Origin: Acholoe squamosa
Taxonomy: Eukaryota > Annelida > Polychaeta > Phyllodocida > Polynoidae
Assembly (NCBI GenBank): GCA_949317995.1
Contig: OX439050.1
Coordinates: forward strand, 18,554,061-18,618,060
Reading direction: 5' to 3'
Length of the DNA stretch: 64,000 nucleotides
A model generated the notes under the pieces. It had not been told where the DNA came from and made no database searches. It saw only the letters and a program-made list of their open reading frames with translations. Shown one piece after another: positions 11,175 to 64,000 of the stretch (position 1 is the first letter of the stretch; every line of letters begins with the position of its first letter). The translations under genes were made by a program, and so were the position numbers.

Positions 11175-13292
11175 ATGTACAAAGGTTACAGCAGTGAGGC
11201 TCTAACCAACCACCTAGATGGGCCTGAATTAGATATTGAGGTCCCTTCACCTAGTCCTTACAGTAAACTGATTGGTCTGTGTAACAACTTCCTTAACCGA
11301 CATCATCCTGTCAAGTCAATAAGGGTTAAGGTTAACCCCCCGAAAGGTTACTCAGTGGCTATGGACCGTTTATCTAATCCCAAAAAGAAATATTTAAAAA
11401 AATTGAGAAAATATCATGGTCCTCCACCCAACCCAAATCTGTTATTGTTACGAAACTTAGATATCCGGATTAAAAACGAACTATCAAAGAATCGTAAGGC
11501 AGAAGTACTCTCGAATTTACACAAACATAGAAATGACCCCCGGCGCTTTTGGCAAGAAATATCCTAGATCTGGAAAGGTCCTAAAAAGGAGAATGTATTA
11601 AATCTGGAAACTAATGATGGCATCTCTATAGCTCGCTGTGCTACCGCCACATATGTGAATGAGTTCTATGTTGGTGTTGGTCCTACGTTAGCTGCAGCCA
11701 TTCAGATGCCTAATGCCTATTCTTGTAACAGGCTGAGACAACTGATGGGAGCTGCTCGAGTCGATATTGATTATATATTGGAATTACGACCACCAACTAT
11801 ACAAAACTGTATTACCCTTATTAAGGGGATTAATACTGGCAAGTCATCCAGTATTAAGGATATTAGGGCTATCATACTGCATGACATCATGCTTTACAAA
11901 CCGGTACTATTAAGGGATATTATACATCAGTCAATAATTGATGCGAGAGTAGATATAATCATGAAAAAAGCTAATGTGATCCCTTTGCCGAAAACTGGAA
12001 ATCTACGAGACATCTCAAATTGGCGGCCTATTAGTCAGCTGAACTTAATATCCAAACTGATTGAGAAGGTAATTCATGCACAAATACTTGATCATCTTCT
12101 AAGATATAACATTATAAGTAAAAATCAGTATGGTTTTATGCCAGGAAGATCCACTTCCAATGCAATTTATCAATTGACTCATAGTCTTTTTGAAGGTTAT
12201 AATGGGAGGGAGTGCTCGGCCGTAGTCTTCCTCGATCTGAGAAAGGCTTTTGATACGGTCGACCACTCACTCCTACTAATTGAGTTGAGTAATATCCGAA
12301 TATCACCTAGGAGTATTGAATGGCTAAAGTCCTATTTGGTTGGCAGAACCCAATGTACAACTGCCAATGGTGTAACTTCCCAAGATCTTTCTATTACATG
12401 CGGAGTACCCCAAGGCTCGGTCTTGGGGCCACTATTATTTATCATTTACATCAATAAGGTTGTTTCTGTAATTGAGAAATGTAGTTTTTGTCTCTATGCT
12501 GATGATCTTGTAATTTATACCCATAGTAAAGATCCAAATGTTGTACTTGGTGATATTCAACATGATCTGAATAATGTTTATACCTGGTGCTGTATGTATA
12601 AACTTACTGTAAATGTAGATAAAACTCACCTATTATGGTGTGCACCAAGCCTGTTATATAATAGGATGCAGCTGAAGCATTGCTCAGTTAGTCTAGGTGG
12701 TGTATTTTTGAAAGTGGTCGACTCTTTCAATTATCTAGGGGTCCTTATAGATAAACAACTGAATTTTAAGGAACATTTGGATAAGGTGAAAAATATTTTT
12801 CAATCAAAAATGTACCAATTGAGACGGATCCTTCAGTATATTGACACTTACCTTGCTGTAAAATTGTATAAACAAATGGTGCTACCTGCTATTGAACATG
12901 CCAATTTTATACACGAATGTGGTCCTAACTCTGTGGTGAATAAACTGCAGACCATGCAGAATCATTGCCTGCGATTATGTTATCGAATTAGGGACCCTCG
13001 TGATATAACGGTACATGAATTACATGTAAGGTCGAGATGTAAGCTATTACAGGTAAGAAGGAATAAATGTCTCCTTGGCATTATGTTCGATGCCTCTAAG
13101 GACTCAGATAATGTATATGTTCCACCACGTGCACTCCGCGGCAATGTTAAAGTGCAACTAAATGTTAGCCGATCTACGTGCCTTGCATATGATATGAGTC
13201 CACTTGTCAGAGGCAAGGTGCTTTGGGATAAACTGGATGCTGATGTTCAGAAATTGGAATCCAAAAAGCAATTTATGTTGAAAATTAGTTAG
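11175..13292 (+). pseudogene. LINE reverse transcriptase, one internal stop
   Basis: The frame is open from 11175 to 13292 apart from a single in-frame TAG at 11565-11567. Reverse transcriptase blocks appear in order: a WRPIS(Q)LN motif, NQYGFMPGRST, FLDLRKAFDTVDH (first catalytic Asp), GVPQGSVLGPLLF and the YADD active-site box near 12500. A C-terminal thumb and linker region follows, with a Cys-bearing segment. Sequence similarity to CR1/Jockey elements is the basis of the class call. There is no RNase H domain. A 5'-truncated relative of the C-terminal part lies at about 36.7-37.5 kb. Confidence 0.88.
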
Positions 13293-17162: not shown

Positions 17163-17235
17163 TGGACTTTTCGGGATTTGAACCCAAGACCTTCTCATAA
17201 TGAAGCTGATGCTGTACCACTGAGCTAGAATCCCG
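17163..17235 (-). repeat. tRNA-like SINE head or tRNA pseudogene
   Basis: On the minus strand TAGCTCAGTGGTACAGC is a good A box and GGTTCAAATCCC a perfect B box, at tRNA-like spacing. The acceptor stem and anticodon stem do not pair well, so this is not a functional tRNA gene. A polymerase III SINE head is the likeliest reading. Confidence 0.6.
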
Positions 17236-41581: not shown

Positions 41582-41900
41582 CTCAGACCCAGGTGTGATG
41601 GGAGAGTCCGGATGGCAGGTGGCAGCATCTGCCTCCGAGTTCGTATCCGTTACACCAGGGGGCCTTCCACTCATCCGTCATACGTAAAGGGCAGTTCCTA
41701 CCGTAGTTCTTCAGTAGTGGTCCTACCACTGCTCAGCACCCTTCTACTGTTACCTATGGGTAACCGAATGCCATCCGGTATGTAGTCTCTATAGGCTGTG
41801 ATCGTATGTAACTAAGGTCAGAATAAAACACTTGGTTGCCTTGAAACTTCTTCTCTTTTCGTTATGATTTGACATCTAACCAAAAGGACGAACCACTACA
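41582..41900 (+). repeat. Left (5') LTR, lacking its TATA box
   Basis: It matches 57093-57456 through CTCAGACCCAGG, TTACACCAGGGGGCCTTCCA, AGGGCAGTTCCTACCGTAGT, GTAGTCTCTATAGGCTGTGA and GACGAACCACTA. It lacks about 45 bp that in the right copy hold CACGTGACG and TATAAAG, so the core promoter is gone. A poly(A) signal AATAAA is at 41822-41827. The exact 5' boundary is uncertain because no clear TG start is shared. Confidence 0.85.
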
Positions 41901-47900: not shown

Positions 47901-47935
47901 CTTGCTGGGGACTGCCGTAACCTAACCCGTTAAAC
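44930..47935 (+). pseudogene. Gypsy pol: protease, RT, RNase H, integrase remnant
   Basis: The protease active site DTGAS lies near 45064. Reverse transcriptase follows from about 45870, with VTKKDGT-x-RFCIDYRKLN, FGLCNAPATF and the YLDD catalytic box at 46303-46314. RNase H begins FILDT near 46704. It is cut by about 250 bp of unrelated sequence (46720-46968) and resumes with FASNTLSK and LRTNHSSLRWLL. The integrase keeps the zinc finger start (C-x4-C-x2-C) and then jumps at 47330 to SDGHVEKFNKTL, so most of the catalytic core, including both Asp residues, is deleted. A basic tail (47700-47935) follows. Stops and frameshifts occur in several parts. Confidence 0.85.
46720..46968. other. Insertion of about 250 bp in the RNase H region
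   Basis: Sequence here does not continue the RNase H frame and contains GCCCTAGCAAGGGTA twice in related form (46846 and 46887), with GTTCGGAAGAAAAACCCGCG between. No inverted ends were identified, so its nature is unknown. Confidence 0.4.
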
Positions 47936-48234
47936 ACAACAAGTGTGGTGTCCTGTACTGTGTATTGTTATATGTTGTAACCTAGTTCAATGTATACCCG
48001 AGCCAATCGTCAGTTCTTGGAAAATGACCTGTGACAATATACCCACAGTTATGGACGGATAGTCCGGTGGATATGCCTATGCTATCCATAAACTCCATAA
48101 TACCTTGCGAGTTGTCACAGTTGACACACAATTATGGGCAGATAACTGCCCGGGTATTGAATTGTTTATATGTAAGATGCGTGACCTAATTAAGGGTGTG
48201 CTTGACCCATTTAGGTCAGTCAGGTGATGCGCCG

Positions 48235-48300
48235 GTTCGAACATGCGCAGCGATTCAAGTTCGAGGAACCCGCCATATTGTCTTATTCCTGCAAGGGAAG
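48235..48300 (+). promoter_or_regulatory. Putative internal promoter before the post-pol gene
   Basis: The region has CATGCGCAG (NRF1-like half site) at 48242 and GCCATATTGT (YY1-like) at 48272-48281. The ATG of the extra gene follows about 190 bp later. The same 10-mer lies about 180 bp before the homologous ATG in the other LTR element. The promoter role is inferred from conservation and motif identity. Confidence 0.45.
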
Positions 48301-48468: not shown

Positions 48469-51400
48469 ATGGCGGAAGAGGCCGTTCGGCTTGGCGGCGG
48501 TGCCGGTGCCAGCACCCCAGCGGAGTATGGTAGTGGAGCCCTACATACTCGTATGATGATCAACAGTATGATGAAGACTGTGATCAGATGGATCAGCGCA
48601 TGAACGTTCATCAGTACTTCTCTGGAATGGAAGACAGCAATGTAGAATCCTTCTATGACGCATCTGAACATTCCAGACAAGGCAGCCCTGACTGCCCCCA
48701 CGGTCAGCCCTCTATGGATCCAGGAACACTATGTGGCCCCTGCACCCACGAACCAGTTGAGTGAAGAAGCATCCGGAAAGCTGTCGCAAGACCACAATCT
48801 GATGCAACCTCCACGTCAACTACCCCCATGACTTAGTGTTGGTACCTGCGGTGTGTTGGGCGGTCTTTCTTCTCCAGAAGAGAGGCCTACCCACATAGAG
48901 ATGCCACCAGGCAGAAGCCTTGAATGGGCAGATATAGCAGGTCCATACGACAGGCAAAAGCTAGCTGTTTCTGACGAAATGCTAGTACTCACCGCAGATG
49001 GAATGCCCAGGGAGATTGACTCATGAGTAGTCAATGTGATCTGGGAATGTGCTCACCCTCTATGAGCCAACACAATTCCTGAAGCCTGGTTGATGGATTA
49101 CCATCAAATGGCTAAAGGATTGGTGGTGCATTTGTGGTTCCGCAAAGCTGTCTGGGATGCGGAGATGGCTTTCAGGAGGAATCGGTTTGATAGACCATTC
49201 TATGTGTCTGACGCAACCGGTTACACCGGTGTCAAGGCTAACAAGGTCGCTCAATACATTGACCGCGACCAGATTCTATTTTTAGAAACTGTGGATGAAT
49301 ACGAAGCAGCAGGCAATGCTGTGTTGGAATACAGTCTGGGGGTCCCCATCGCATCTCAAGTAATTGAGGCTGAAGAGGCCCGTATTGGTGTCTCTCCAGC
49401 AGTCCAAAATCTTGTGGTAAGATTGTTGGAAAGACAGTATGCCTTGGAGCACCCAGAGATTCCATCTGGGGAAACGTCAGTGCAAGTTTTACCCGAAATG
49501 GCTAACAAAATGGACCGCTTGATGTCTCCCGACCAGCCCTTACTCATAGAGGACAAGGCTCGGGTATCCGAGCAGGCTCCAGCTGTCCCGCCCCATACCG
49601 ACAGTTCTCCCGCTTCTGCTCAGTCTACTCCCGAGAAGGCTGAAAAGAAGTCAGAAAAAACTGGGAGTGGAAAAAGCAAATTCACTAAAGGAAAAGGTAA
49701 AGGAAAAAACATAAATGTCGAACCCTCTGCCAGTACCAGTGTGGCTGAAGGCACCCGGAGCCAACGTGTGTCTCCAAAAGTAGCCAATAGGAAGGCAGCT
49801 AAGACTATGGATGTTTCCGGCAATGAGACGGACGCATCCGAATCAGGCTCCTCCACTAGTCAGACTTGGAAGAGGAACAATAAGAAGGTTTCTCAACGGA
49901 AACCCGAAGCTGTCGAGGTAGAAGCCCAGCTACCAAGTCCACCGGCTGTGCCTGATACCCCTGCTACTGTAAAAAAAGAGGCTAGTGTGCCAGTTATCAA
50001 ATTTCATGACATCATGACCTGTTGTGCAACCAACAGCTGGACCATCCGGAGAAGAACACAAGGTGCCGTTGGACCCAGTTTTGGATGCGAGTCCTACAGA
50101 CGAGCAATAGGCTGTTATCTTGGCTAATGCCAATAACAACTTTGCTGACTTTATTCCCCTGTATCGTGGACGTCTGAAGGGTAGCAAATCCATCTGGAGA
50201 CTGCCCCCTCAGAAGACATGTGAAGGGTTTGAGGATATGGAGGACTGGCTTTGCAAGAAGTTTTCCGACCACAAACCGGCCACCATGTACTGGTTGTATT
50301 GGGAATTCGTAAAGATTTCATCCAACAACCCGTACAATTATGACCAGAAGGCGAAGTTAAAGTTTGCCTTAGAGAAGTACTAAGGGGATGAGCACAAGGA
50401 TTGCCCATTCCAACATTGTACTCAGATGGAGGGTGAAGTGGAATTCTTGTTAGATAAAGACGCATTTTTGCGCCATCTAGTTGAGTTCCATATGCAACGG
50501 AGGCCGGAGTACGTCTGCGACTCGGAGGCTGGCAAGAAATGTGCAAGATCTGTCACCCACCAGCGAGGAGATATGATACGGGATTGGGAATCCGCTCATG
50601 GAGAGGGTTTGGAGAATGCTATTGATAGAGTGGTAAAGGTACATTCTGAACTCTACAATAACCTTCAGCATTGACCCCCGAGACACTGTCTTCACTCAAA
50701 TCGAGTACAAAGCAGTTTGCGCCAACAGTTCCTGGTACTAACCAGAAGCTGAAGGCTCGGTCTCCTGGAGCAGGTAAACTGGAGTATGCTCAAGAGAAGT
50801 ACGACTTGCTGAATGAGTGGAGAAGCAATAAGGCCCGCAAACGTGGTGGAGCCTATGTTACTCCAACCAGAGAGCAAGTCCATAGCCGCAGAGATTACCG
50901 TCAAGGTCTCTCTGCTGGAGACAGGAAGAGACAGGCCTCTGCTAACCCTAGCTGATCCAGGTCACCCATAGAAGTGCTGGAGAATCAGTTGTATGGCTCG
51001 AACAGGAAGAAGCAACATCTTCCTGTCCCCACTGGAACTCCCACGAGTTATGGTGTAACACCGCAGGGTGGTGCTCATAAACCGACCTTCTTTGGTGTCA
51101 GTGGACCGGGTGGCCATGCCTCTCGCCCCTGACCAAAGCTAAATCTGAGGTATCCAAAGCAATTTCCTCCTATGGGCCCATCTGGACCAGAGACGCAAGT
51201 CTTTGATCAATATGGTAGGGCCAAACAGGAACTGTTGGCTGGGAGAGGTTAAGGCCAATGACCGACTCTTGGTATTGTGGTGCAGCAATGTCCAGCTGCA
51301 CCAATTACTACTAAGCAGCTTAAAAGGGAGCTGGCTATAGGTTGCCCCTAATCCAGGGAATACCAAACTAGGGACCTTCTACGCCCACTACTAGTGTTAC

Positions 51401-52017
51401 GACAACCGTGGTTGCTTCCTCGCATCCGGCTGTGTCTGTCTCAGCCAGTGGATCTGGACACCTGAACCCGAGGCCACAGAGTCAGGTACCTCCTCCTGAT
51501 GATGTGGTTCATCGGCCTAAGGTCATCCAGATGGCCGAAACCTTCTTTAAGAAGGAGGAGAAATTGTCTTGATCCATCCAGATCAAGCAATTTGAGACGT
51601 TACAACACCATATGGAGAACCTCCACTTGGATATGTACCGTCGGACAGTATCAAGCACCTTACAGTGTATTGACACCATCCAAAAATCTGAGATAAAATA
51701 TATCTCTGCTCAGATGAAGGCTGAGGTTGCCAAAGAAAAGCAGGAAGCTGGAAATCTGAGGCAAGAAGCCTTATCGGACAAAGAGACTGCATCTCAGATG
51801 CTCAAAGTTGAGAGAGCAATGAACATGAGAAGTTCTTCAAAGTATTTGGAGTTGTTCTGGACAACTGGGATGGCACCCCTGGCCATGCTTTGGATCTTTT
51901 CAAAGCTTGCCAGAAAGTCAATCTGGTTGTTGCAGCACCTCCCGCACCTCAAGGACCGGATCCGGATCAGCCTGCTCAACAGCCTGACCAGGATCAACCT
52001 GAGTTCTAAGAACATGG
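48469..52017 (+). pseudogene. Post-pol accessory gene, decayed copy (unrecognised family)
   Basis: Between integrase and the 3' LTR lies about 3.5 kb of broken coding sequence, colinear with the better copy at 63029-60134. It starts MAEEAV (MAEESV in the other). Conserved block 1 lies near 48880-49210 (AGPYD, TADG, PEAWL, GLVV-x-x-x-FRKAV-x-x-A-x-x-AF). A Ser/Thr/Lys-rich linker follows (to about 49950), then block 2 near 50120-50385 (ANANNNF, MYWLYWEF, KLKFALEKY). A finger-like YVCD-x-x-x-GKKC-x(18)-H segment lies near 50510-50600. Then come a Pro/Gly-rich region, a helical Lys/Glu/Ala stretch (51600-51830), and a terminal VFGV-x-x-DNWDGTP motif near 51845. There is no signal peptide or membrane segment. 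Function is unknown. Confidence 0.7.
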
Positions 52018-53640
52018 AGCAGTAAAACTGCTACATGTTGGTTGGACATAAATAAGTGTCCCGTATATGGAGGTGACTCACCTAGTATTGTTAGCAGGGG
52101 CGGATCTAGGGGGGGGGGGTCCTGGGGGTCAGGACCCCCCCCCTTTTGGTCCACCCATAACATGTCCAAATAGGGGTCCCCGAAGGTGGACCCCCCCCTT
52201 TGGGACCACCCCAGATGTCCACTTTGTATGCCTCCATTCAAGACTCCTATCTCTTCAATATACTTTTTATTGTTTGCAAATTGTACAATTTATGACTCTA
52301 CAGCATCTAAAATATATAAAATTTCCTCAAAATTCTCTAATGTGAGCCAATCCAGAAAAAATTACCATTAAATTAAACATATAGATAATGCTTGGCTTAG
52401 ACCTATAATTATTATATAAGGCATAGCTTATACCACAGGGGGTCTCATATAAGGTGGGGTAAAGAGCTCTGGTCAAATATGCCAAGTTATCCTAAATATC
52501 TCTGTCTTTAGTGAATACTATTTTCTGCAAAGCGCATACCATATGTGTGAGTACCTCAATGATAGGTTTAGCTGAAATCAGCCTTTTCTGATGAATAAAA
52601 CAATCAGAAATTGAGTATTTTATTTTCTCCAACTGTCAGAATTTTGAAATCAGGCTGTTCCATCAATAGACACCAACCCACTTCTGTTGGGTTGTTGGTC
52701 AGTTTATGGAGCTGCTCCAGCCTCCACCCCCAAACCCTAATGACCCCACACAGACCAAACTTCAAAGAGGACCACCTGTGGGGCAATAAAAATTAGCACC
52801 TCTGTGTGAAAGCAGTATACACATGCTGTAAGGGCACAGCAGGACTTCAGTTTGTATGTACACCAACGGAATCTATCCCTTTAAACCCATCCGGGTGAGC
52901 CCTATAGGTTGAGCTTGAGTGGTAAAGGCCAGGTTAAAAAAGAAATGGGTCAGCGATCTAGGGTATAATTTACATTAGATTAGGGGTAATCCACTAAAAA
53001 CTACCCCTAATATGCACCAGTGACCACAAAGGCATCTAGGCATTGGGTGTGCCTTATGCGTGGGATACTATATGTGGGGTTCCCCTGGTAATTTTCTATC
53101 AGATTTACATCCTATTTATTCATCACTTAGGGTGCATAAAAATACTTTAAACATCTTTGACATCTTTTTTCCAAAGTTTTCTTAAGGGCAGGCTCCAAAT
53201 CAATTTCAAATAAAACTACTAGATTCACAACCAATGATACAGTAATTCCTTAGACCCTTAGACTACAGTGTTTGACACCAATATGTTTTAAACATTTCCT
53301 TGGGGGACAAGCTGTCCAAACCCTATTAAAGAACAATGTATGGTATCAGGACATGAATTTGCTCCCTTGCTGAAAACACTTGCCTATACTAAAATGCTTT
53401 AAATATAAGTTTGATGATTATGTTATAAGATTTTCTTTGGGCATGAATCAAAACTCCCTTAACCACCAGTGCATAAATATACCCCTCACGGTACACCAAA
53501 ATGCCTTAAACTTCAAGGTTTGACATCAATTTTTCAAAAAATTTCCCATGGGTGGGGGCAGGCCCCCACACCCCCTTTCACAACAATATCTAAGATTACT
53601 AGATTCACATCTAAGGCCAGTTGAATCCCTTAAACTAGAG

Positions 53641-53677
53641 TTATCCCTCGGAAACCTTAAGCGTTTCCGGAAACCTA
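53641..53677 (+). repeat. Left 37-bp inverted repeat of the mini-DIRS unit
   Basis: It is an exact inverse match to 55408-55444. The inner end passes straight into the RNase H frame (about 53670 onward), with no room for a start codon or promoter of the usual DIRS type. Confidence 0.9.
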
Positions 53678-54145
53678 TGAAACAGCCATAAAATTAGGCC
53701 TCGATGCACTAATCACAGAGAACGGGGTCAATGTGAAAATCAGGACTGACAACACTAAATCACTGGCTTATGTCAGGAAAATGGGTGGGGTTAAGTCTGA
53801 ACCATGCAATAAGATAGCCAAAGAAATTTGGGAATGGTGTGAAGAACGGGACATTTGGCTAACAATAAACCACATCCCGGGGAAGGATAACGTCCTGGCT
53901 GACTACCTGTCTAGACACTTCTCCTAGAGTGGGAACTAAGTGAAAAGATTTTCAAAAAGGTGTGTAAAATCTTTAGCAAGCCTGAGACAGATCTCTTCGC
54001 TTCTCGAGCAAACAAAAAGTTAGAAACTTTTGTTTCTTGGGGGCCTCAACCAGGTGCCTGGGAAATTGACGCTATGTCAATAACTTGGAGGAATAACTAT
54101 ATATGTACATTTTTCCTCCTTTCAGCCTCTTGGGGCCCGTGATAC
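53678..54145 (+). pseudogene. DIRS RNase H C-terminal part and linker domain
   Basis: The frame running from the left repeat reads IRTDNT, then MGG, then HIPGKDNVLADYLSRHF, the last catalytic-site region of DIRS RNase H. A frame change near 53925 leads to EWELS and PETDLFASRANKKL, then YIFPPFSLLG and ILITPDWLGQPWY in a further frame (54103 onward). These are standard DIRS segments between RNase H and the recombinase. The N-terminal half of RNase H and all of the reverse transcriptase are absent. Confidence 0.8.
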
Positions 54146-54233
54146 AGCGGATCTGGCTGGAGCAGGTGAGGGCTATCCTGATAACACCAGACTGGCTGGG
54201 ACAGCCCTGGTATGGCGGACTACAGCGGTCCGG

Positions 54234-55285
54234 GTGGCGGATGCTCAGGTTCAGGAAGGCCAAGGGCAACCTTTGTCATCCGGGGGAGCCAGCCAACAAA
54301 GAGCGACTGTCGGCGACCCCACTCCTGGCATTTCGGACATTCTGAAAGCAGAACTATCTCACCACGGCCAGGCCATCGAACTTATCACGCAAGCCCGTAG
54401 GCCTGCCACACGGAAGACGTACAACACATACCTTCGTAAGTGGTACGCCTTCTGTGCAGACACTGACACACAAATCCTCCAACCGTCGATCCAACGAGTG
54501 TGAGAGTTCCTGGCGAAATTGGCCAAAGACAAAAATGGATACACCGCGCTAAACGCTGCTCGTTGTGTGCTCTCGGCCATTCTGGGCGACTTCCAAGGCC
54601 AATCAGTGGGCCAGCACCCATACGTAAAGCCGCTTCTGAAGGGGGCTTATGAGATGAACCCACCGGCCCCTAGATACCAGGAGTTCTGGGATGTGAGGAG
54701 GGTTCTAGACCTTCTGCAGACCTGGGACAATGGCACCACCGCACTCAGGGAGCTCTCCATGAAACTGGCCACTTTGCTCCTCTTAGTCACATCACAAAGA
54801 GGCCAGACCATCGTCAACCTTTCCATCCAAGGTTTGAAAATGGGAGACAAGGTGGTATTCAAGATGACAAGACTCCTAAAGTCTAACAGGTTGGGGGACC
54901 CTCTCAACACGATAGTCCTGAGGAAGTTCGACCAGAACCCTAGGGTGTGCGTTGTTAGGTGCCTAGAAGAGTACCTGAAATGCACCCAAAGCAAAGGAAG
55001 AGAGAGAAAAACCTCTTGGTCAGCTTCGTCTCGCCCCACCGCGGTATCTCCCGCGATACACTTAGCCGTTGGGTCATGGTCGTGCTTAAAAAGGCTGGCA
55101 TTGATGTCAACCAATACAAGCTACACTCCACCCGAGGGGCCTCTGCCTCAGGCATCCTTAAAGTGGGAGGAAACCTCAACACCCTCATGAGGAGAGTGGG
55201 TTGGAGGCAGGCGGAGTCTTTCGCGAAGTACTACCACAAACCAATCGAGGACATGGTAGGGGCAAATGCGCTCCTCGAACAGTGA
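54234..55285 (+). pseudogene. DIRS-type tyrosine recombinase, frameshifted
   Basis: An N-terminal SAM-like binding part starts in one frame (TRKTYNTYLRKWYAFC, near 54410). A TGA at 54501 interrupts it, and the catalytic domain opens with SQRGQTI (first catalytic Arg) near 54790. A frameshift between 54960 and 55030 leads to HSTRGASAS (the H-x-x-R pair) near 55125 and VGWRQAESFAKYYHKP, which supplies the Trp/His position and the Tyr nucleophile. All catalytic residues are therefore still readable, but in separate frames. The enzyme integrates circular DIRS DNA without a DDE integrase. Confidence 0.85.
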
Positions 55286-55407
55286 CTGTTTCTAGAGACT
55301 GCATATACCACTTCTTTCAAGCTACACTTTCTGTTAAATATAGATTGGATACTAAAAAGATTGTGTTTGGTTTTCTGTTGGGGGATTCAATTGCTATGAA
55401 ACTCTCG

Positions 55408-55444
55408 TAGGTTTCCGGAAACGCTTAAGGTTTCCGAGGGATAA
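55408..55444 (-). repeat. Right 37-bp inverted repeat of the mini-DIRS unit
   Basis: It is the exact inverse of 53641-53677, about 120 bp after the recombinase stop. Outside both repeats the sequences differ (CTAGAG left, TTTTGA right), so no target duplication is seen. Confidence 0.9.
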
Positions 55445-56217
55445 TTTTGAAATTATTCGAGACTTACCTGTAAGTTGAGGTATAATTAAGATTATACCAA
55501 GGGAACCTAGCAGTTCAGGGAATATACGCCCCACCCTCCCTCAACTTACTCGTACACTCGTCAAGTAGACATTATCTATAATAATGAATATAATCAGGGG
55601 GATATAGTTTACACATCCCAGTATATTTATTTTATCAGTTGTAGGCTTTCATCCCCCAACAGGCTCTTAAGGACTGACTGCGCATGCGCGAATCCACCAA
55701 ATTTAACCTCTATATTACAACATTTTTTTCTAGAGGACCAGCACCCATAACCTCACAAAGAACAAAGCATTACCACATATAAGATTTGCATCCCCTTTAT
55801 GTAAACCTTGCCAACCCCAGGTTTACACCAAAATGCTTTAGAAATTGGACTTTGATATCTATATTTCAGAAATTTTCTAGGGGACATACCCCCAAGCCTC
55901 CCTAAAACACAATAGTGGAATCAAAATGTAATAAGATTTTCACTCCCTGTTCATGGGTTTATACTGCTGATGGTACACAAAAATGCTTTACTAGATTGGG
56001 GTCTAGAAATACATCAGAATGCACCATTTCATGTCTAAATTTCAAAATTTTCTTGGGGGGGCCATGCCCCCAAACCCCCTAACTTTGTCATGGCACTGTG
56101 CTTGCGACATCACGGTGCTGTGCTTGTGACATTGCGACGCTGCGCTTGAGACATCGGAGTGATAGGCCCCAGGGTTGGACCCCCCCTTTTAAAATTCCTG
56201 GATCCGCCCCTGGTTAG

Positions 56218-57092
56218 ATAGAAACTAATTTTTCTATCTAACCCGGTAATTTTTTATTAGAATATATATTATATCCTAATCCGGAAACTCTAAGCCGCAA
56301 ACATGATGGAGTACGATGCTGTATACGAATATCCATGGATGTGCTGAAAAACTATATTATATCTGCATAGTACTGTTGCAGTTTGTGTCAAACACATCAC
56401 TAGCGGTGCTTTTATGCTAGTATGTATACTGTGTTATTGTCAAAACTGAACTATCCACTGGATTACTTATCTATCACTACAAAGTCAGCTAGCACTACAG
56501 GCATCTTGTTTTAGCTATGCCCACTCGTCTAAAACCACACCTGGAATCCAGCTATGATAAACACCAGTTAGCTAGCACTACAGGCATCAGGGTTTAGCTA
56601 CGCCCATTTACAACATATCCACAATCATGGAAATAGCACTTCAGGCATCAGGGTTCAGCTCGCCCAAATCTACTATCAAGTCACCTCACATAGGAATATG
56701 AACTTTAGCACTACAGTGCATCAGGGTTTAGCTACACCCACAACTCCAGCAGTATCCGACTCCTTGGAAATTCTCCATCTACAAACAAGAAACATAATCA
56801 TCTATTATTACATTGTATAGTCGTATCTATATCATAAATTATGTGAAACAGGTGTTCATGTAAATTCATATCTTTTACAAAGGTATATAAATGTTACTCA
56901 CCTATGAATGGCTAAATAGACCTACAATTGTTCATATAGGTCTTTCCTGGTCTCATTATATCAGAGACTATTTTCTTCTGTAAAGTGTTACTTGTACAAA
57001 ACACATGGTAATTATATATCTGAGCTGCATCTCATAAACTATATAACTAGAGAAAGTCAAGTGGACATCTCTTAATATTAAATCACTCAGGT
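56218..57092 (+). other. 3' non-coding region of the Gypsy element
   Basis: It lies between the nested DNA element and the right LTR. AGCACTACAGGCATC-x-GG-TTTAGCT-x-x-GCCCA recurs about four times from 56485 to 56745 at uneven spacing of 75-110 bp. GTTAGATAGAAA and TTTCTATCTAAC at 56213-56242 form a short hairpin exactly at the insertion point of the DNA element. No polypurine tract is obvious before the LTR. Confidence 0.55.
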
Positions 57093-57456
57093 CTCAGACC
57101 CAGGTCATCAGGTGTGATGGGGGAGTCTGGATGGCAGGTGGCAGCACCTGTCTCCAGGTTTGTATCTGTTACACCAGGGGGCCTTCCACTCGTCCGTCAC
57201 ACGTCACGTGACGAGTCTGAGTTTCACGGGCTTTTCCCCTATAAAGGGCAGTTCCTACCGTAGTTCTTCAGTAGTGGTCCTACCACTGCTCAGCACCCTT
57301 CTACTGTTACCTACAGGTAACCAAATGCCATCGGGCATGTAGTCTCTATAGGCTGTGATCGTATGTATCTAAGGTCAGAATAAAACACTCAGTCGCCTCC
57401 CCGGAAACTTCTTTTTTCGTTATGATTTGTCATCTAACCAAAAGGACGAACCACTA
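57093..57456 (+). repeat. Right (3') LTR with TATA box
   Basis: This fuller LTR copy includes CACGTGACG and TATAAAG (57240-57246). A poly(A) signal AATAAA lies at 57379-57384 and the terminal GACGAACCACTA precedes host sequence. Length is about 364 bp against 319 bp for the left copy. Confidence 0.88.
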
Positions 57457-57488
57457 AAAAAGTAAAAAATAATGGAATTTATCTTTAC

Positions 57489-57611
57489 CTTTTGCATGTT
57501 TTTGACATAAGCAGTCTGAAATGGATCGACAGTTACCCATGTGATGAGAATGATGGTATTTACACAGATGACAGCCAATACGATCAGAAGCAGTTGGTGA
57601 TCCTGAATGTT
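57489..57611 (-). CDS. GABA-B-type receptor, fourth-helix exon
   Basis: The exon is 123 bp, phase 0 at both ends, bounded by the acceptor TTTTGCTTCAG and donor AAG|GTAAAG. It encodes 41 residues: IQDHQLLLIV begins the helix and ITWV-x-VDPF ends it, matching the DQKLL(V/I)IV and C/TW-x-x-VDP pattern of the GABA-B family. The donor lies about 30 bp from the edge of the Gypsy LTR. Confidence 0.88.
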
Positions 57612-58014
57612 CTGAAGCAAAAATGAATATTTTGTATATTAGGTTTAGGAAAACAGAGCCAATCAAACATTTTTTTCTTCAATTTTAAAAAAGAGAAACA
57701 GCTAAAAAATGTAGACCAATTTGGGCAACATTGAGTTGGTTTAGTAACTCTTAAGTTGCACATTGTTTTATGAAAAAGCATAAAAACAAAAACAAAACAA
57801 AATATAATCATCTACCTACCCTGGATCATTATACTATAAAAGTAAAAATACCTCTATTTGGGCCTTAGGTATTCAACAAGAAGAAGATATCATCCTCCAC
57901 CAAGTAAATAAACAGAGACAAGTTTACCACATATCTACATTGACGATCTACTGCCCACGTAATTGTAAATCACTTGTATCTTCAAAAGTGAAAATCTTGG
58001 TGATTGTAACTTAC
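57612..58014. other. Receptor intron, nothing else seen
   Basis: A 403-bp AT-rich intron between two receptor exons, without repeat ends. Confidence 0.6.
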
Positions 58015-58122
58015 CACAGTCTTTGGTTTCTTGGAGGCAAAGATGACATGGACCCTCCAAGTTTTGGAGAATAGAGATCCAAAGACAAGGGAGAAGCCGA
58101 TGATAAAAGCAAACACCCTCAC
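58015..58122 (-). CDS. GABA-B-type receptor, third-helix exon
   Basis: The exon is 108 bp, phase 0 at both ends, bounded by the acceptor GTTTACATACAG and donor GTG|GTAAGT. The encoded GFSLVFGSLFSKTWRVHVIF matches the third helix and second inner loop of GABA-B receptors (FG-x-(M/L)F-(A/S)KTWRVH-x-IF), one of the most conserved parts of the family. The exons for the ligand-binding domain and first two helices must lie beyond the LTR element to the right. Confidence 0.92.
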
Positions 58123-58150
58123 CTGTATGTAAACAAGGAGAATACCCACT

Positions 58151-58247
58151 TGGGCCAAGAAAAAAAGGTGTGTTTCCAGTAACCCGACTGACCCTAGCAA
58201 AACAGGGCCGATTTTATTTTATTTATTTTTTGTTGACAGGACCATAG
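58151..58247. mobile_element. GGCCTAA MITE, copy 5, cut by an LTR element
   Basis: TGGGCCAAGAAAAAAAGGTG and TTTCCAGTAACCCGACTGAC are one inverted end. The sequence then follows copy 3 (TTGACAGGACCATAG) until 58247, where the LTR begins. Copy 3 continues TAACAATACC at that point, so the other half should lie beyond the right edge of the window. Confidence 0.8.
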
Positions 58248-58611
58248 TGTTAGGGTTCGTGGTCTTACGGACCTGGCGGGTTCGGGTCTTACGATTCGGA
58301 AAGAAAGAGTAAGACGGTGTTTCAAGTGTAGAGTTTATTAAGATGTACACTCACGGCTATCCGGTAGTTGTTTAAGAGGATAGCTAACAGTTATTAAGGA
58401 TGGTCTACATACTTGGAGGCCAGAAGGGCCTCTGATGTAGCGGCTGAGCCCTGGGCTTTATATAAGGACCCAGGTGTTCGTCGTCAGATGTCCCCACAGA
58501 CCCGGATCGGTGCTGCCACCTATCCGGAACCTGAGGAACGTTCAACGACTCGACTCACCCGCCACGTCAGACGGTACCCAACACTATGGTTACACAATAA
58601 GTACCTCTACA
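58248..58611 (-). repeat. 3' LTR of the second element
   Basis: On the minus strand it begins TGTAGAGGTACTTATTG directly after a polypurine tract and ends CACGAACCCTAACA, giving the canonical TG...CA ends. It has TATATAAAG (58456-58464) and AATAAA (58334-58339). Length is 364 bp. No sequence similarity to the LTRs of the first element was noticed beyond layout. Confidence 0.88.
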
Positions 58612-58624
58612 CCACTCCCCCAGA
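58612..58624 (-). promoter_or_regulatory. Polypurine tract
   Basis: On the minus strand TCTGGGGGAGTGG lies directly against the TG start of the LTR, the position for plus-strand DNA priming. Confidence 0.75.
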
Positions 58625-60133
58625 CATTTAGGAAGGAGTTATAGTTATATAATTATTACAGGGATAACATTTCTATATGTCTAAACCCTTAGTAATAGAG
58701 GTACAACCATAGATATAATGTTAACACCATGTTAAGTATGATTCGAATGTCAATTTTACAAATTTGATAGTGTATATAGTTACAGAATAACAAACCGGAT
58801 GTTGTAATATGATACGAATTAATTGAATGAATAACAGTTATTTGTAGCGGAACTGTTAATTAACCTTTTATACCATGTAGTAACATTTTATGTTTACGGT
58901 ATAAGTATTAGGATAAGTACCATAATTCGTATATATGTGATAATAACAGTTATATGTAACGGAACTGTCAAATATCGAATAAATTACATGATAACATCCA
59001 TATGTGTTTGTAATTAATAATATCATGAATGATTAGATAGTCTTGAGAAAGACTTTTAAAGTAACCACACTATCTAATGACATTTTATATATTATGACCA
59101 AATAAATCCGTTAAGGATTTTGTGAGTTATTAGGTATAGAACCGTTATCAATTATACACTTGAAAAAGAAAAAAAAATTACGGTGGAGTAATGTATATGA
59201 CAATATATGTGATACCACCATGTACCAAATAACCTTTATAGCACCAGATGAATATATTTATAATACAATATGCCTCGCAGGACAATAATATGAATAATCT
59301 GGTGAGGTCTATCGGATCTTATTAAATAGATATGAACATTAATCAGAGATCCGTATTAATAGAAATGCATATACCCGTATCAAAATATGCAGTAAATTAT
59401 CACCACAGTGTGACTATAGACATACAAATAATATTGGAAAAATAGTTATATGACATCATATACATAATAAAATGATAAATGCTGCTGGAGTCCTGCACTG
59501 CAGTCTGTTGGATGCTGGAAGATAGGTATGGTGGTCAGCTAACCACGGGATGGACGTGCTAGAGTCTTTTCATATAATAGGTGAACACAGTAGATGAATT
59601 TGGGGCAGCTACCCACAATCCTCTAGAAGTGCTATTGTTCATAGGTATATCTGAATGGTGTAGAATAATAGTAGAGTAATAGTCCGGTTTTGTCAACAAG
59701 TAGAAACGTAATCCATTTAAGTATAGTTGACATAAGTAAAAGTCCAATGTAGGTTGGTCCGGAAGTAGTAGTAGTATGTAGTTTTAATCCATTCGGGAGT
59801 AGAGGTAGCACAGAATCGTATAGTCCATCCTTATATAGCGGTCAGCAACAGGTAACAACAGGAATCAGGAACCAGCATCCGGATACGTGTAGCAGCATCA
59901 AGTCTACTATCGGATTTGTTATAAGTTATGAATCCGAATAGACCTTTCAGGATATAATAGTGGTATATGTCCTGAATATACACAAATAGCTGGTTATAAA
60001 TGGAACCCGGAACACAAAGAGCAGGTGTTCATTATTCTAATAGAAGACATTCGCAGAAGTATAGTTCCGCAAAGACTAAATCTGGTTATTAGAAGAAAAT
60101 AATAGGTATGTAGAGAAATAACCCGTAGCATGC
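58625..60133 (-). other. Long 3' non-coding region of the second element
   Basis: AT-rich and free of long frames. AACAGTTAT(T/A)TGTA(G/A)CGGAACTGT is repeated near 58828 and 58944, and GTATAAG-like runs recur. The first element has a comparable non-coding stretch at the same place, so it may be a packaging or 3' UTR function rather than a lost gene. I see no env frame in it. Confidence 0.55.
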
Positions 60134-61303
60134 TTAGGTGGACTTCTTAGCATGCTTCTTCTTAAGAAGTTCTAGAGCCGATTCGGGAGTGCCGTCCCAC
60201 TCGTCGATATTGACTCCGAATACCCTCATAAACTTAGTGTTTAAGTTGGTATTCCGAGTTATCTCCTCCTTAACACGCTTCTCTAGAACGTGCACGTCCA
60301 TAGCTGCCTGTTCTTTGGCAGCTGAGGCTGCATCCTCCTGGGCCTTTACATCGTCCCGAATGAGGGTCTCGAGGCGCTGCTTTTCGGCGTCCGCTACCTC
60401 CTTCATACATAACAGGGTATCGTTAAGGAGACCCTGATGAAAGTCAGTCGCTCTGTCGCGAACACATTTCTCCCAGTGGGTGTAGATGGCCTTTTGGACA
60501 TCCGCTTCCCCTTGGCGAGACTTCTCAAACCAAATTTCTGCATTACCGGTTTTAATGGTAATAGCGTCTTTTGGTTTCTCAGGTGTTGCGACAACCTTGG
60601 GGGGTGTCGATACTGCCTGAGGACCACTTCCGGATGTGGGGCTTCCGGATACTCCTGCTGTTGGTACACAGTAGGTGGGAGGCTGGTTCTGCTTCAGCCC
60701 CATCTGCATATAAAGGTTTATCTGCTCTGGGGTGAAGTTGGCTGGTAGAGCGGCTGCAGCAGATGCGGATCCGGCGGCAGCAGGTGCTGAGGTCTTCTTG
60801 GGGACAAGTCGACCACCCTTTCCAACGACCAAGGTCTGGCTCTCGGGTCCAGGTCCCTGGTTCATGGACGGAAAGTTACGGGTGTTAACTTTCCCCGGCT
60901 TAGATACAGCACCTGCGTATCCTACAGGTTCGGGTCTCTTAAAGACAGGAGTACCCTGAACCTGCTCGTGTGGGTGACGAGCCAAGGGAGACCTGGAGTG
61001 ATCTTCTACCCTGGCTTTAGTAGCTGTGGTGGTCTGACCATTACCGTTACCACCACGGTTCTGGTCTCTTCTGCTCCTCTCACGAGCTCTCTTTCCCTCC
61101 TTACCGGATTCCTCGCATTTCTGCCAGAGGGACTCATGCATGTCGAGTTTTCCTTTTCCAGGAGTCAGGACAATCTTGGCGCGGAGTTTCAAATCCTTGG
61201 TCTTCGGAACCTCGCAGAGGACTTGGTCCCCTGGTCGGATCTTCGACCAAGCATCTTCGCTCAGGCTGTCGCACTCCTTCATGAGTTCCTGATGGAGCTC
61301 CAT
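60134..61303 (-). CDS. Post-pol accessory protein, C-terminal frame (389 codons), unrecognised
   Basis: The ATG at 61303 opens 389 codons. The frame is also open further upstream to a TGA at 61373-61375, beyond which a finger-like segment continues. In order: a helical start; a basic Arg/Lys/Gly stretch (about residues 66-100); a Pro/Gly/Ala/Ser-rich disordered part (about 100-240); a Lys/Glu/Ala-rich predicted coiled coil (about 280-355); and a C-terminal VFGVNIDEWDGTP-x-x-ALELLKKK. The basic and Pro-rich parts and the C-terminal motif are matched in order in the first element. The domain set suggests a nucleic-acid-binding or structural protein. I do not assign a function. Confidence 0.7.
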   Translation of the reverse strand: MELHQELMKECDSLSEDAWSKIRPGDQVLCEVPKTKDLKLRAKIVLTPGKGKLDMHESLWQKCEESGKEGKRARERSRRDQNRGGNGNGQTTTATKARVEDHSRSPLARHPHEQVQGTPVFKRPEPVGYAGAVSKPGKVNTRNFPSMNQGPGPESQTLVVGKGGRLVPKKTSAPAAAGSASAAAALPANFTPEQINLYMQMGLKQNQPPTYCVPTAGVSGSPTSGSGPQAVSTPPKVVATPEKPKDAITIKTGNAEIWFEKSRQGEADVQKAIYTHWEKCVRDRATDFHQGLLNDTLLCMKEVADAEKQRLETLIRDDVKAQEDAASAAKEQAAMDVHVLEKRVKEEITRNTNLNTKFMRVFGVNIDEWDGTPESALELLKKKHAKKST

Positions 61304-61480
61304 AATACGTTTACGAGCTCCATCTAATCCTTCTGCGTGGCATTTCTTCTGGTGTCTAGCCAGATCGCTACGTCAGTTATACTGAACCTTCGTAGTACAT
61401 TTCTTGCCCTTCTTACCATAACTCGGATCACAAATGTAAACCGGGTGATGGTGGAAGTGGGCCTCTACCAGATCCCTCTG
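61304..61480 (-). pseudogene. Junction with C2H2-like zinc finger, broken by a frameshift and a stop
   Basis: The frame upstream of the C-terminal part reads HHHPVYICD, GKKGKKC, then a stop (61373-61375), then RSDLARHQKKCH. C-x(10)-C and H-x4-H with RSDLARH in the recognition-helix position is close to a classic C2H2 finger. The first element has YVCD and GKKC, then HQRGDMIRDWESAH, at the same place. To reach this frame from the upstream open frame needs a frameshift between about 61430 and 61510. In the ancestor the two frames were probably one protein. Confidence 0.6.
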
Positions 61481-63029
61481 GAACCGGGCTGGAGTACTCC
61501 AGGTCGTCACCGTACCACTTCTCAAGAGCCCAACGCAGCTTGCGCCTCTGGGTATAGGTATAATACCCTTCGGTGTGGTTTAGCATAAGCCACATCTTAC
61601 GATAGGCTTTGCTCGGATTGGAATCCTCGTCCGAGAGACGCATCCAATCTTCGTCATTCGACTCGTTGTTTTTATTTACAGAGTCCGGGCAGGCGTACAG
61701 GGTAGAGCCGTCCTTCTTTACTCCGTAGGTGCAGTCGGAGAAGCACGTCGGAATCCGGGTTTTAAATCCGGATTTGGCGTTAGCCCATCGTTCTGCCTCG
61801 GTTTGAGTTGATGGAGTGGCCTTCTCATCATACTCAACCGAGGACTCATGCACTGATTCCTCGTCCGAGGAAACAACCTCCATGGCAGTACTACCAGTGG
61901 CTGAGGTGCTGGCTTGCGGTTCGGCTCTAGCAGAATCCGGAAGATTCTTGAGCTTCCGCGCAGCAGACCTCCTGTTCTTGCTTACCTTCCAGTCTTCCGG
62001 GTCCTTGGTTCCGGACTCACTGGAGGTTGATGCTTCTACCGTGGTTGACTCGGTAGTACTGCCGGTGGCTGTAGCAGAACCGGCTGCGCTTCTGGTGGCG
62101 AGTTTCAGGTCTGGGATAGGAGGTGCGGGTACTTCCGCTTCCCTCTTAGCCTTTTCCAGGGCCTCCTGCTCTGCAGTCATACGACGGACGAGAATCGTCC
62201 GAAAGGCTGCACTCCTGTCCATACCTGTTAGCGACTTGTTCTGCACGTCGACTAACTCCGCTTCGGTTATATAATAACCATTGTCCCACTGCTTGAAGTT
62301 GCTAGCAGCTTCACGGGACTCCTTCATGGTCCGACACTGGGGCCGGGTGGCACAAGGACGTGGGTAGGTTTGCCCCTCGGGTTCCGAGACGCAGCCTACC
62401 CAATCAATGTTGGTCTGCTTAACATTCCACAGAGACCTGTCCGGCTTCGGATACGCTGCGAGCAGGAAGGCTCTGTTTGCTTGATATACTACTTCACGAA
62501 AAGCAGCGTCCACCATGAGTCCCCGTTGGAACCACGGCCAGTCTCGGAGCCATTCGGGTGGCGTCCTGTCCAGCTGTTCGGGAGCCGTGACGCCCTCGAT
62601 AGCTATTCTAACCTTCGGGTCCAACCTAACCCGTGTACCGTCCGCGTAGGTCACCTGTGCCTGTAGCTCCGGATGGACGTACAGGTACCGACCGTCGTAC
62701 TCTGCAGAGAACGGGTCAGCCACTGCTGGCTTCCACTGATCCTTCGGGCCGTCGACTTGTGTAGTCTCGGACCCAGTTGCTGCGGGTTCAGGGTTCGCAG
62801 CATCTCCAGATCCCTCGGGTGGAAGTGGTGACAACAGCTTTTCGGGCTCATTCAGTGAGAATGAGGCCAGCTTCTCCTCGAACGAGCGATCCGTGGGTTC
62901 CTCCACATCCATCATCTCGCTCTCTTCCTGTGTCACAGGTGACAAAGCTTCCGGAAAAGCTTCTGCGGACGGAGTCAGCTTATCGGGGTCACCGGATAGC
63001 TTGGCTGCAGCTACGGATTCCTCAGCCAT
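61428..63029 (-). CDS. Post-pol accessory protein, N-terminal frame (533 codons), unrecognised
   Basis: I chose the ATG at 63029 because MAEESV there matches MAEEAV of the first element. The frame is open about 110 bp further upstream but without an ATG. In order: an acidic Glu/Pro/Ser-rich start (about 1-110); conserved block 1 (about 115-215) with YDGRYLYV, TYADGT, PPEWLRDW and FREVVYQANRAF; a charged helix (about 265-300); a Ser/Thr-rich low-complexity part (about 300-390) with a short basic run KNRRSAARKLK, perhaps a nuclear signal; and block 2 (about 415-515) ending RRKLRWALEKWYGDD. No signal peptide or membrane segment. Blocks 1 and 2 match the first element in order. No known family recognised. 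Confidence 0.75.
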   Translation of the reverse strand: MAEESVAAAKLSGDPDKLTPSAEAFPEALSPVTQEESEMMDVEEPTDRSFEEKLASFSLNEPEKLLSPLPPEGSGDAANPEPAATGSETTQVDGPKDQWKPAVADPFSAEYDGRYLYVHPELQAQVTYADGTRVRLDPKVRIAIEGVTAPEQLDRTPPEWLRDWPWFQRGLMVDAAFREVVYQANRAFLLAAYPKPDRSLWNVKQTNIDWVGCVSEPEGQTYPRPCATRPQCRTMKESREAASNFKQWDNGYYITEAELVDVQNKSLTGMDRSAAFRTILVRRMTAEQEALEKAKREAEVPAPPIPDLKLATRSAAGSATATGSTTESTTVEASTSSESGTKDPEDWKVSKNRRSAARKLKNLPDSARAEPQASTSATGSTAMEVVSSDEESVHESSVEYDEKATPSTQTEAERWANAKSGFKTRIPTCFSDCTYGVKKDGSTLYACPDSVNKNNESNDEDWMRLSDEDSNPSKAYRKMWLMLNHTEGYYTYTQRRKLRWALEKWYGDDLEYSSPVPEGSGRGPLPPSPGLHL

Positions 63030-63204: not shown

Positions 63205-63310
63205 AAACAATATGGCGACAGGCCAGCTTTCGTGACGTCATTTCCCCGTGAGTCCACGAGAGGTCAGTCGAGACTGGACGCGGTGACGTCATGCGGAAAC
63301 GCACGTGCTA
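63205..63310 (-). promoter_or_regulatory. Putative internal promoter of the post-pol gene
   Basis: The spacer holds GCCATATTGT on the minus strand (63207-63216), two perfect TGACGTCA sites (63233-63240 and 63284-63291) and a CACGTG E-box (63302-63307). The start codon lies about 180 bp downstream. The YY1-like 10-mer is identical in sequence and similar in distance to the first element. TGACGTCA is the known CRE bound by CREB/ATF factors. Use as a promoter is inferred. Confidence 0.5.
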
Positions 63311-63530
63311 CAAGCGGAACATCAACAAACTGATTGTTTTTAGGTAATTATCGCTCACGCCGATGACTCATCTGAGGATTTAAGTGGAGATTATGGAAAG
63401 CTTAAGCAAATCCACCGGATTATCCGTCCACTACCCATTGGTACATCATGCGGCGGCGACAAATAAGCCTTTCGGGTCAGTTGTCATCCGTTCCTCTAAA
63501 AGTAAACATTACACTCGTTGTGTATACAGG

Positions 63531-64000
63531 TTAGGTCACTGCAGTCCTCTGGGCAATTCGAGGGCTGCGGCGAACGTATATCCCCTTCTTGGATAGTTCT
63601 TTATCGGACCTGACAGTCTGAAGAGCCTTTTCTGGGTGTTTCTTGGCCTTCGAAACACCTTTCCTCTTCTTTTTGTCTTCACCTATTGAGACTTTTTTAA
63701 CTCCCCCACGCTTAATCGGTGTTGGCGTGGGTGGTACTGATTCGGAACACTTCTTAGGCCTACCCCGGCCTCGCTTCACTGTAGTGTTCTTTACCTGGTC
63801 TAATATACGATTCTGGTTTCGGATATTTTCTAATCCTTCACCATACATTTCTGTGGAGGTCTCCCTCCCACACCACTTCCTCAGTCTGGCCACATTTGAC
63901 TTATAGAGTCGACCAAGGTCTGATTTGATAATTACGGTACAATCACTAATAACTTGTGTTACAGTAAAAGGACCGTCCCAATTAGACGCTAATTTTATGT
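63531..64000 (-). CDS. Integrase C-terminal domain and AT-hook tail (partial)
   Basis: The frame enters from the right edge and ends at 63531. It shows LASNWDGPFTV, typical of the C-terminal (GPY/F-like) domain of Ty3/Gypsy integrases, then SNVARLRKW. A long basic tail follows with KRGRGRPKK, an AT-hook-type minor-groove binder, and KKVSIGEDKKKRKGVSKAKK. The tail is matched in the first element (RPWRPRK, IKKVSAG, KRKGSSKAKK near 47755-47900). Such tails can steer integration through DNA or chromatin binding. The catalytic core is outside the window. Confidence 0.85.
   Translation of the reverse strand, partial: IKLASNWDGPFTVTQVISDCTVIIKSDLGRLYKSNVARLRKWCGRETSTEMYGEGLENIRNQNRILDQVKNTTVKRGRGRPKKCSESVPPTPTPIKRGGVKKVSIGEDKKKRKGVSKAKKHPEKALQTVRSDKELSKKGIYVRRSPRIAQRTAVT

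Follow-up and report, generated by a model that had tools for sequence, protein, structure and literature searches.

Layout of the two elements

The right end of a 64,000-nucleotide stretch of the Acholoe squamosa genome (assembly GCA_949317995.1, contig OX439050.1, positions 18,554,061 to 18,618,060; hereafter the window) was found to contain two long terminal repeat (LTR) retrotransposons, E1 (plus strand) and E2 (minus strand), which point in opposite directions and are separated by less than 1 kb. Behind integrase and on the sense strand both carry a long additional open reading frame (ORF) of approximately 950–1,200 codons, here called ORF3, which on the evidence of its sequence is a genuine third gene of a Ty3/Gypsy lineage. 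An original prediction, made from the window's letters, had reported two Gypsy-type elements sharing a long gene after integrase, and its coordinates, strands and gene order were right.

Coordinates are collected in Table 1. The pol, gag and 5′ LTR of E2 are contained in the adjoining 10 kb of the contig past the window end (L009). Both elements were classed as Ty3/Gypsy LTR retrotransposons by LTRs placed around gag and protease, reverse transcriptase (RT), RNase H and integrase, and by an RT of Ty3 type. The protease, RT, RNase H and H2C2 integrase of E2 scored above the Pfam cut-offs, with the rve model at 30.4 bits versus 32.6, and all three PDB matches of the E1 RT piece were Ty3-type or related (4ol8, named only RT/RNase H; 7q5b, Ty3-G; 8r0s, enzymatic polyprotein). 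No Pfam gag model passed its cut-off in E1 or E2, the gag call being based on position and on E1–E2 homology. E1 as a whole is decayed, and its LTRs share 81% of positions, gaps counted. After the 5′ LTR the elements are alike, reading CTGGTGC(T/C)GTGACCAG, which we take to resemble a tRNA-His primer site. No clear target-site duplications were seen for either element.

At the protein level E1 and E2 are approximately 64% identical over RT and 77% over part of integrase. Their gag agrees at 45% over its capsid part and their ORF3 at approximately 24% over two long stretches, rising to 57% in the ORF3 end motif and 40% in a finger piece. The elements had been described as diverged; this holds for ORF3, whereas by their RT and integrase they belong to one lineage.

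Conserved parts of ORF3

Two lesions interrupt the ORF3 of E2, a frameshift near 61.5 kb and a stop near 61.37 kb. Seven pieces of E1 ORF3 were compared with three of E2, using 300 shuffles each, and the eight of 21 pairs that no more than 15 shuffles equalled were reported. For block 1, block 2, the finger pieces (twice) and the C-terminal WDGTP motif none of the 300 shuffles was as good. The same count was obtained for the Pro/Gly stretch, yet it lay just one point above the best shuffle. The coiled coil, a call made by eye, was equalled by one shuffle in 300 and was better supported by an E1-family copy (L040 versus E2, 8e-11), while a pairing of block 1 with a finger (3/300) was taken as chance. 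All significant matches were on the sense strand and in the same order, and the same domain order recurred in three subfamilies. Of the shared series that had been claimed, blocks 1 and 2, the fingers, the coil and the end therefore stood, and the Pro/Gly stretch just did so; the MAEE(A/S)V start and Ser/Thr-rich linker, visible by eye, were not significant alone, the N-terminal piece and linker of E1 giving no significant pair against E2.

Two Cys/His finger-like motifs align across E1, the E2 family and a copy of another subfamily (L013). The first reads C-P-F-x2-C ... F-x-R-H-(L/I)-V-E-x-H, with single departures in copies L012, L016 and L035, and the second C ... C ... R-x-D-(L/M) ... H, its last H missing in L011; the resemblance to fingers is one of Cys/His spacing only. 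A short motif, FP-x-M-x-P-x-GPE(S/T)QV, is common to E1 and L013, and E2 has a close form of it.

Genomic copies

With the E2 LTR as query 40 of 2382 candidates were scored, and one flank was taken for 30 of the 40 (L010–L039). ORF3 sequence was present in 15 flanks: L013, and 14 from the E2 family, of which three or more (L017, L019 and L034) hold it only in part. The other 15 had no ORF3 match, as expected where the LTR was the other end or solo. In L013 a single frame stays open for 983 codons. The integrase of this copy is 58% and its ORF3 approximately 30% identical to that of E2, and the copy matches E1 across block 2 and the fingers (E 2e-16). L013 links E1 and E2. Its coiled coil and its end, FG..L.EWDGLP, follow in a different frame. 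Another flank, L025, carries a related integrase (56%) and the end motif FHRVFGVHLHQW.

Block 2 and the finger region were open in all six hand-picked copies (five of the E2 family and L013, from the 15 that bear ORF3); the region of finger 1 is broken in the window copy of E2 and in L010. A search with the E1 LTR, in which 40 of 1479 candidates were scored and eight loci taken, gave E1-family ORF3 remnants at three (L040, L042 and L043). The ORF3 sequences of L020 and L023 are near-identical and lie approximately 105 kb apart on one contig (C12), perhaps as a segmental duplication rather than two insertions. In L017 the second half of ORF3 occurs twice, once on the plus strand (1-1221) and once on the minus strand (5630-4359), through either an inverted duplication or two insertions.

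Selection and recombination

Nonsynonymous and synonymous divergence (pN and pS) was compared after removal of stretches below 70% identity and of stop codons; L013 was excluded throughout, and L025 in the integrase and haplotype run. The original prediction that the gene was kept by selection was borne out in the E2 family, where pooled pN/pS was 0.28 in the first part of ORF3 (76 pairs) and 0.33 in the second (104 pairs), versus 0.99–1.46 for the same codons read out of frame. The pairs are not independent, L020 and L023 being near-identical; dead copies raise pN/pS and never lower it. Integrase, used as the control, gave 0.34 (12 copies, 65 pairs). ORF3 of the E2 family is under purifying selection as strong as that on integrase.

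The copies were divided into two haplotype groups (E2, L010, L011, L020 and L023 versus L015, L035, L012 and L018), L016 and L038 being excluded. Between the groups pS was 0.37 and pN 0.075 in block 1, against 0.115 and 0.012 in block 2, and pN/pS was 0.18 in the N-terminus, 0.20 in block 1, 0.30 in the linker and 0.10 in block 2. ORF3 looks mosaic, probably by recombination, because block 1 diverges far more than block 2 between groups. L016 is intermediate between the groups in block 1. Over ORF3 codons 93-300 of the copies L010–L038 the block-1 groups differ at approximately 35–40% of synonymous positions, compared with approximately 12% in block 2.

A three-way junction between pol and ORF3

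A noncoding element of 51 nucleotides (nt) lies between pol and ORF3 in both elements. It contains 46 nt at 87% identity between E1 and E2, as against 66–74% in pol DNA (three long stretches). At E 0.01 E1 and E2 had three nucleotide matches outside gag-pol coding sequence: this element, the LTR end that adjoins the primer site, and the region of the pol stop codon. DNA over that stop codon is alike between window positions 47909-47946 and 63547-63511 (84% over 38 nt) and also in L013.

E1, E2 and L013 each fold alone to the same three-way junction. In a hand-gapped alignment of the three, 48 of 51 pair cells were kept and 6 of 17 pairs were compensated on both sides. RNAalifold gave -14.85 kcal/mol, a value as low being reached by none of 2000 column shuffles (z -6.2) and, with E1 and E2 only, by 2 of 2000. 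A covariance model found 15 matches in 48 sources, all between pol and ORF3, eight of the 15 being its training sequences; in L011 a deletion has damaged the junction (E 0.06). The model had no match in five ORF3-bearing pieces (L017, L019, L034, L042 and L043) or in L025, some of which may lack the interval. At gathering scores the junction had no Rfam match (window and L013 searched).

Two further signals were read in the interval. The sequence CGCCATATTG, presumably YY1-like, lies 198 bp (E1) and 188 bp (E2) before the ORF3 start; its pattern CGCCATNTTG has four matches in the window versus 0.36 expected, two of them outside the E1 and E2 intervals. The sequence TGACGTCA, which we take to be like a cyclic AMP response element (CRE), has three matches in the window versus 0.51 expected, two in the pol–ORF3 interval of E2 and one elsewhere, and is readable once in L013.

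Protein properties and family searches

The first part of E2 ORF3 is acidic (isoelectric point 4.8) and the second basic (9.3). Besides the finger-like motifs ORF3 carries basic and Pro/Gly/Ser-rich stretches and a coiled-coil-like region. The highest hydropathy over 19 residues was 0.56 and 0.80 in the two E2 pieces and reached 1.22 among the remaining four, compared with 1.80 in a pol control. No transmembrane-grade segment or hydrophobic N-terminus was thus found by hydropathy in the six ORF3 pieces (parts of E1 lie outside them), in agreement with the claim that a membrane anchor is lacking; nor did these pieces show by hydropathy the signal peptide, anchor and fusion segment of an env protein. 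It had also been claimed that ORF3 is not gag: Pfam gave it no gag or CCHC match, and each element has a separate gag-type gene upstream.

No Pfam family above cut-off and no credible PDB chain was obtained for ORF3. A protein database searched with E2 ORF3 gave no relatives among the 7999 candidates sharing most words, or among a further 1048 scored, and the collection may hold few eukaryotes; absence of relatives elsewhere was weakly tested in this way. Viral contigs held no locus related to the ORF3, RT or integrase pieces. A clear match to a known family, named beforehand as the result that would tell against the prediction, did not appear in the Pfam, PDB and protein-database searches made.

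Proposed role and alternatives

We are confident that ORF3 is a conserved accessory gene, neither env nor gag, and the make-up of its predicted product points to a protein that probably binds nucleic acid in the nucleus. The account we tentatively favour as a whole is that of a third gene encoding a nuclear nucleic-acid-binding accessory protein which handles the element's own RNA. The protein would enter the nucleus, oligomerise through its coiled coil and bind nucleic acid with its fingers; it might then bind the unspliced RNA of the element, perhaps at the three-way junction, and promote export from the nucleus or packaging of that RNA, as do CERV of Cer1 or Rev and Rec. Export or handling of RNA as the main role of ORF3 is put forward with rather less assurance. 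It is doubtful, though conceivable, that the finger and coiled-coil protein of approximately 1,000 residues and the junction RNA before its gene form a two-part RNA-handling system independent of Rev/RRE and CERV.

Several points weigh against RNA handling. Fold z-scores against shuffles were -3.1 for E1 and a modest -1.4 and -1.1 for E2 and L013. The junction was spotted by eye before testing, hand gapping favours structure, and an alignment by MAFFT left 5 of 15 pairs compensated and three cells broken; the covariation comes from three lineages only. L025, a fourth relative by its integrase and C-terminal motif, has no junction match. The junction could also work in the form of DNA, or be a signal with no connection to ORF3, and CGCCATATTG and TGACGTCA would fit an internal promoter that RNA export does not need. 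No Pfam zinc-finger match was obtained at E 1, which leaves the motifs outside the classical C2H2 class, and AlphaFold returned mean pLDDT (predicted local distance difference test) values of 34.2 and 37.6 with no usable fold. Production of the protein, its entry into the nucleus and its binding of RNA are predictions from DNA sequence.

The main rival, which follows closely, is a role in chromatin or transcription: ORF3 might be a nuclear regulator, made from its own internal promoter, which sustains transcription of the element, protects it from silencing or directs its integration. The two tandem Cys/His motifs with long loops, the placing of CGCCATATTG before the start and the paired TGACGTCA of E2 would suit such a protein, and transcription of gene23 of Grande is driven by an upstream promoter (PMC7264820). 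However, the first motif is imperfect in L013, the E1 interval is without TGACGTCA, and the conserved junction makes better sense as RNA; we consider a regulator rather unlikely. A structural or packaging protein, either a second capsid-associated or a nucleocapsid-like product of the particle, is less probable again. It would account for the coiled-coil-like region, of which the family's gag by eye has one as well, for the basic Pro/Gly-rich stretches and for the finger-like motifs, but the gag that the family already possesses has a CCHC knuckle (L031, E 8e-4, 1 bit under the Pfam cut-off) and ORF3 gave no match to gag families.

Position after pol and fast divergence relative to pol would be expected of an env-like or cell-to-cell transfer protein, a reading that the hydropathy values of the six pieces and the presence of finger-like and coiled-coil-like parts instead have largely refuted and that we regard as very improbable. 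Least credible of all is the capture of a host gene, present as one copy or two, or a frame open by chance. Extra genes of LTR elements are sometimes captured (PMC7264820), but ORF3 occurs in many copies and at least three subfamilies with pN/pS of approximately 0.3. A chance frame was ruled out by the in-frame versus out-of-frame ratios; an ancient capture may lie at the origin of ORF3.

Comparison with known systems

Rev and its response element (RRE) are a retroviral pair for RNA export. Rec with its RNA element RcRE, and the constitutive transport element (CTE), export unspliced RNA by means of an RNA element that acts with a viral protein or without one; among primate retroviruses, one lineage swapped its Rec system for a CTE (PMC11379458). 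ORF3 and the junction may be compared with these systems as a functional analogy of pairing, no sequence relation being claimed.

CERV of Cer1 in Caenorhabditis elegans is likewise an extra protein of an LTR element. It has 517 residues, a potential leucine zipper, a cysteine-rich region and a G-protein-like domain, is translated from a spliced mRNA, the first exons of which are in the gag frame, and is needed for export of Cer1 RNA; it is highly divergent between species and has no obvious homology outside nematodes (PMC10309623). With approximately double that number of residues, ORF3 follows pol and has a possible start of its own; the two are likened by description. Grande gene23 and the additional ORFs of Retand resemble ORF3 as extra genes between pol and the 3′ LTR, but they are plant genes antisense to gag-pol, whereas ORF3 is in sense orientation; gene23 has its own promoter (PMC7264820). 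In Drosophila the MDG1 group carries accessory sORF1 and sORF2 without a classical Envelope, and the sORF1 product occupies a subnuclear compartment; sORF2 encodes a short transmembrane protein, unlike the approximately 1,000 residues of ORF3, in which no membrane segment was found (PMC11952523).

A literature search gave no described gene of the make-up of ORF3, most subscription journals and Repbase being outside its reach. The proposal of an undescribed family accordingly held for the searches made, with the qualification that additional sense ORFs after pol are a kind already described (PMC7264820). ORF3 is new in content, not in kind: a long additional gene in an LTR retrotransposon, traced over three subfamilies and in one of them constrained as strictly as integrase. 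The proposed role, if true, would explain how Gypsy elements of this lineage bring their RNA out of the nucleus or evade silencing. ORF3 and the junction together suggest an extra step in the life cycle, which is testable without a working element.

Table 1. Features of E1, E2 and their ORF3 genes (window positions unless L009 is given)
Feature	Position	Strand	Remarks
E1 5′ LTR	41590..41898	+	followed by primer-binding-site-like sequence
E1 gag-type gene	~41.9-44.6 kb	+	
E1 protease, RT, RNase H and integrase remnants	44.7-47.9 kb	+	
E1 three-way-junction element	48049..48099	+	noncoding, 51 nt, between pol and ORF3
E1 CGCCATATTG	48271..48280	+	198 bp before ORF3 start
E1 ORF3	48469..52022	+	decayed, several frameshifts and stops
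E1 block 1	49000..49203	+	TADG ... WL ... GLVV ... FRKAVW ... AF; two stops
E1 block 2	50111..50380	+	KLKFALEK
E1 two Cys/His finger-like motifs	50384..50671	+	first His of finger 2 missing in this copy
E1 short motif FPPMGPSGPETQVF...GR	51163..51234	+	pattern match
E1 coiled coil and VFGV..DNWDGTP..AL end	51573..51904	+	coil in frame of 51573; end 51815-51904 in a different frame
E1 3′ LTR	57109..57456	+	
E2 3′ LTR	58246..58609	-	
E2 ORF3	60134..63029	-	open 63029-61428 and 61372-60134
E2 coiled coil and VFGV..DEWDGTP..AL end	60161..60556	-	
E2 short motif FPSMNQGPGPESQTL	60806..60877	-	approximate limits; by eye, the search pattern missed the E2 form
E2 finger region	61283..61500	-	approximate limits; broken in window copy
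E2 block 2	61509..61796	-	CF.DC.Y ... Y.CP..VNK ... KLRWALEK
E2 block 1	62130..62753	-	
E2 CGCCATATTG	63208..63217	-	188 bp before ORF3 start
E2 three-way-junction element	63383..63433	-	noncoding, 51 nt, between pol and ORF3
E2 pol C-terminal end	63531..63998	-	integrase tail, basic; AT-hook match below cut-off
E2 5′ LTR	L009 7772-8147		94.7% identical to E2 3′ LTR

Other observations

Inside E1, RNase H-like and tyrosine-recombinase-like ORFs were recognised by eye at window positions 53661-55285 (plus strand; the stretch spans approximately 53.7–55.3 kb), bounded by inverted repeats at 53641-53680 and 55405-55444, also seen by eye. Judged in the same way this nested stretch is probably a DIRS-type element. 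A further tyrosine-recombinase-like ORF was noted by eye right outside E2 (L009 8900-9598, minus strand). The only Rfam match in the window and L013 was tRNA-like (window 17163-17234, minus strand, 31.4 bits); ARAGORN does not call it, and it is perhaps a tRNA-derived short interspersed nuclear element. Elsewhere in the window an open frame of 545 codons occupies positions 11655-13292 on the plus strand.

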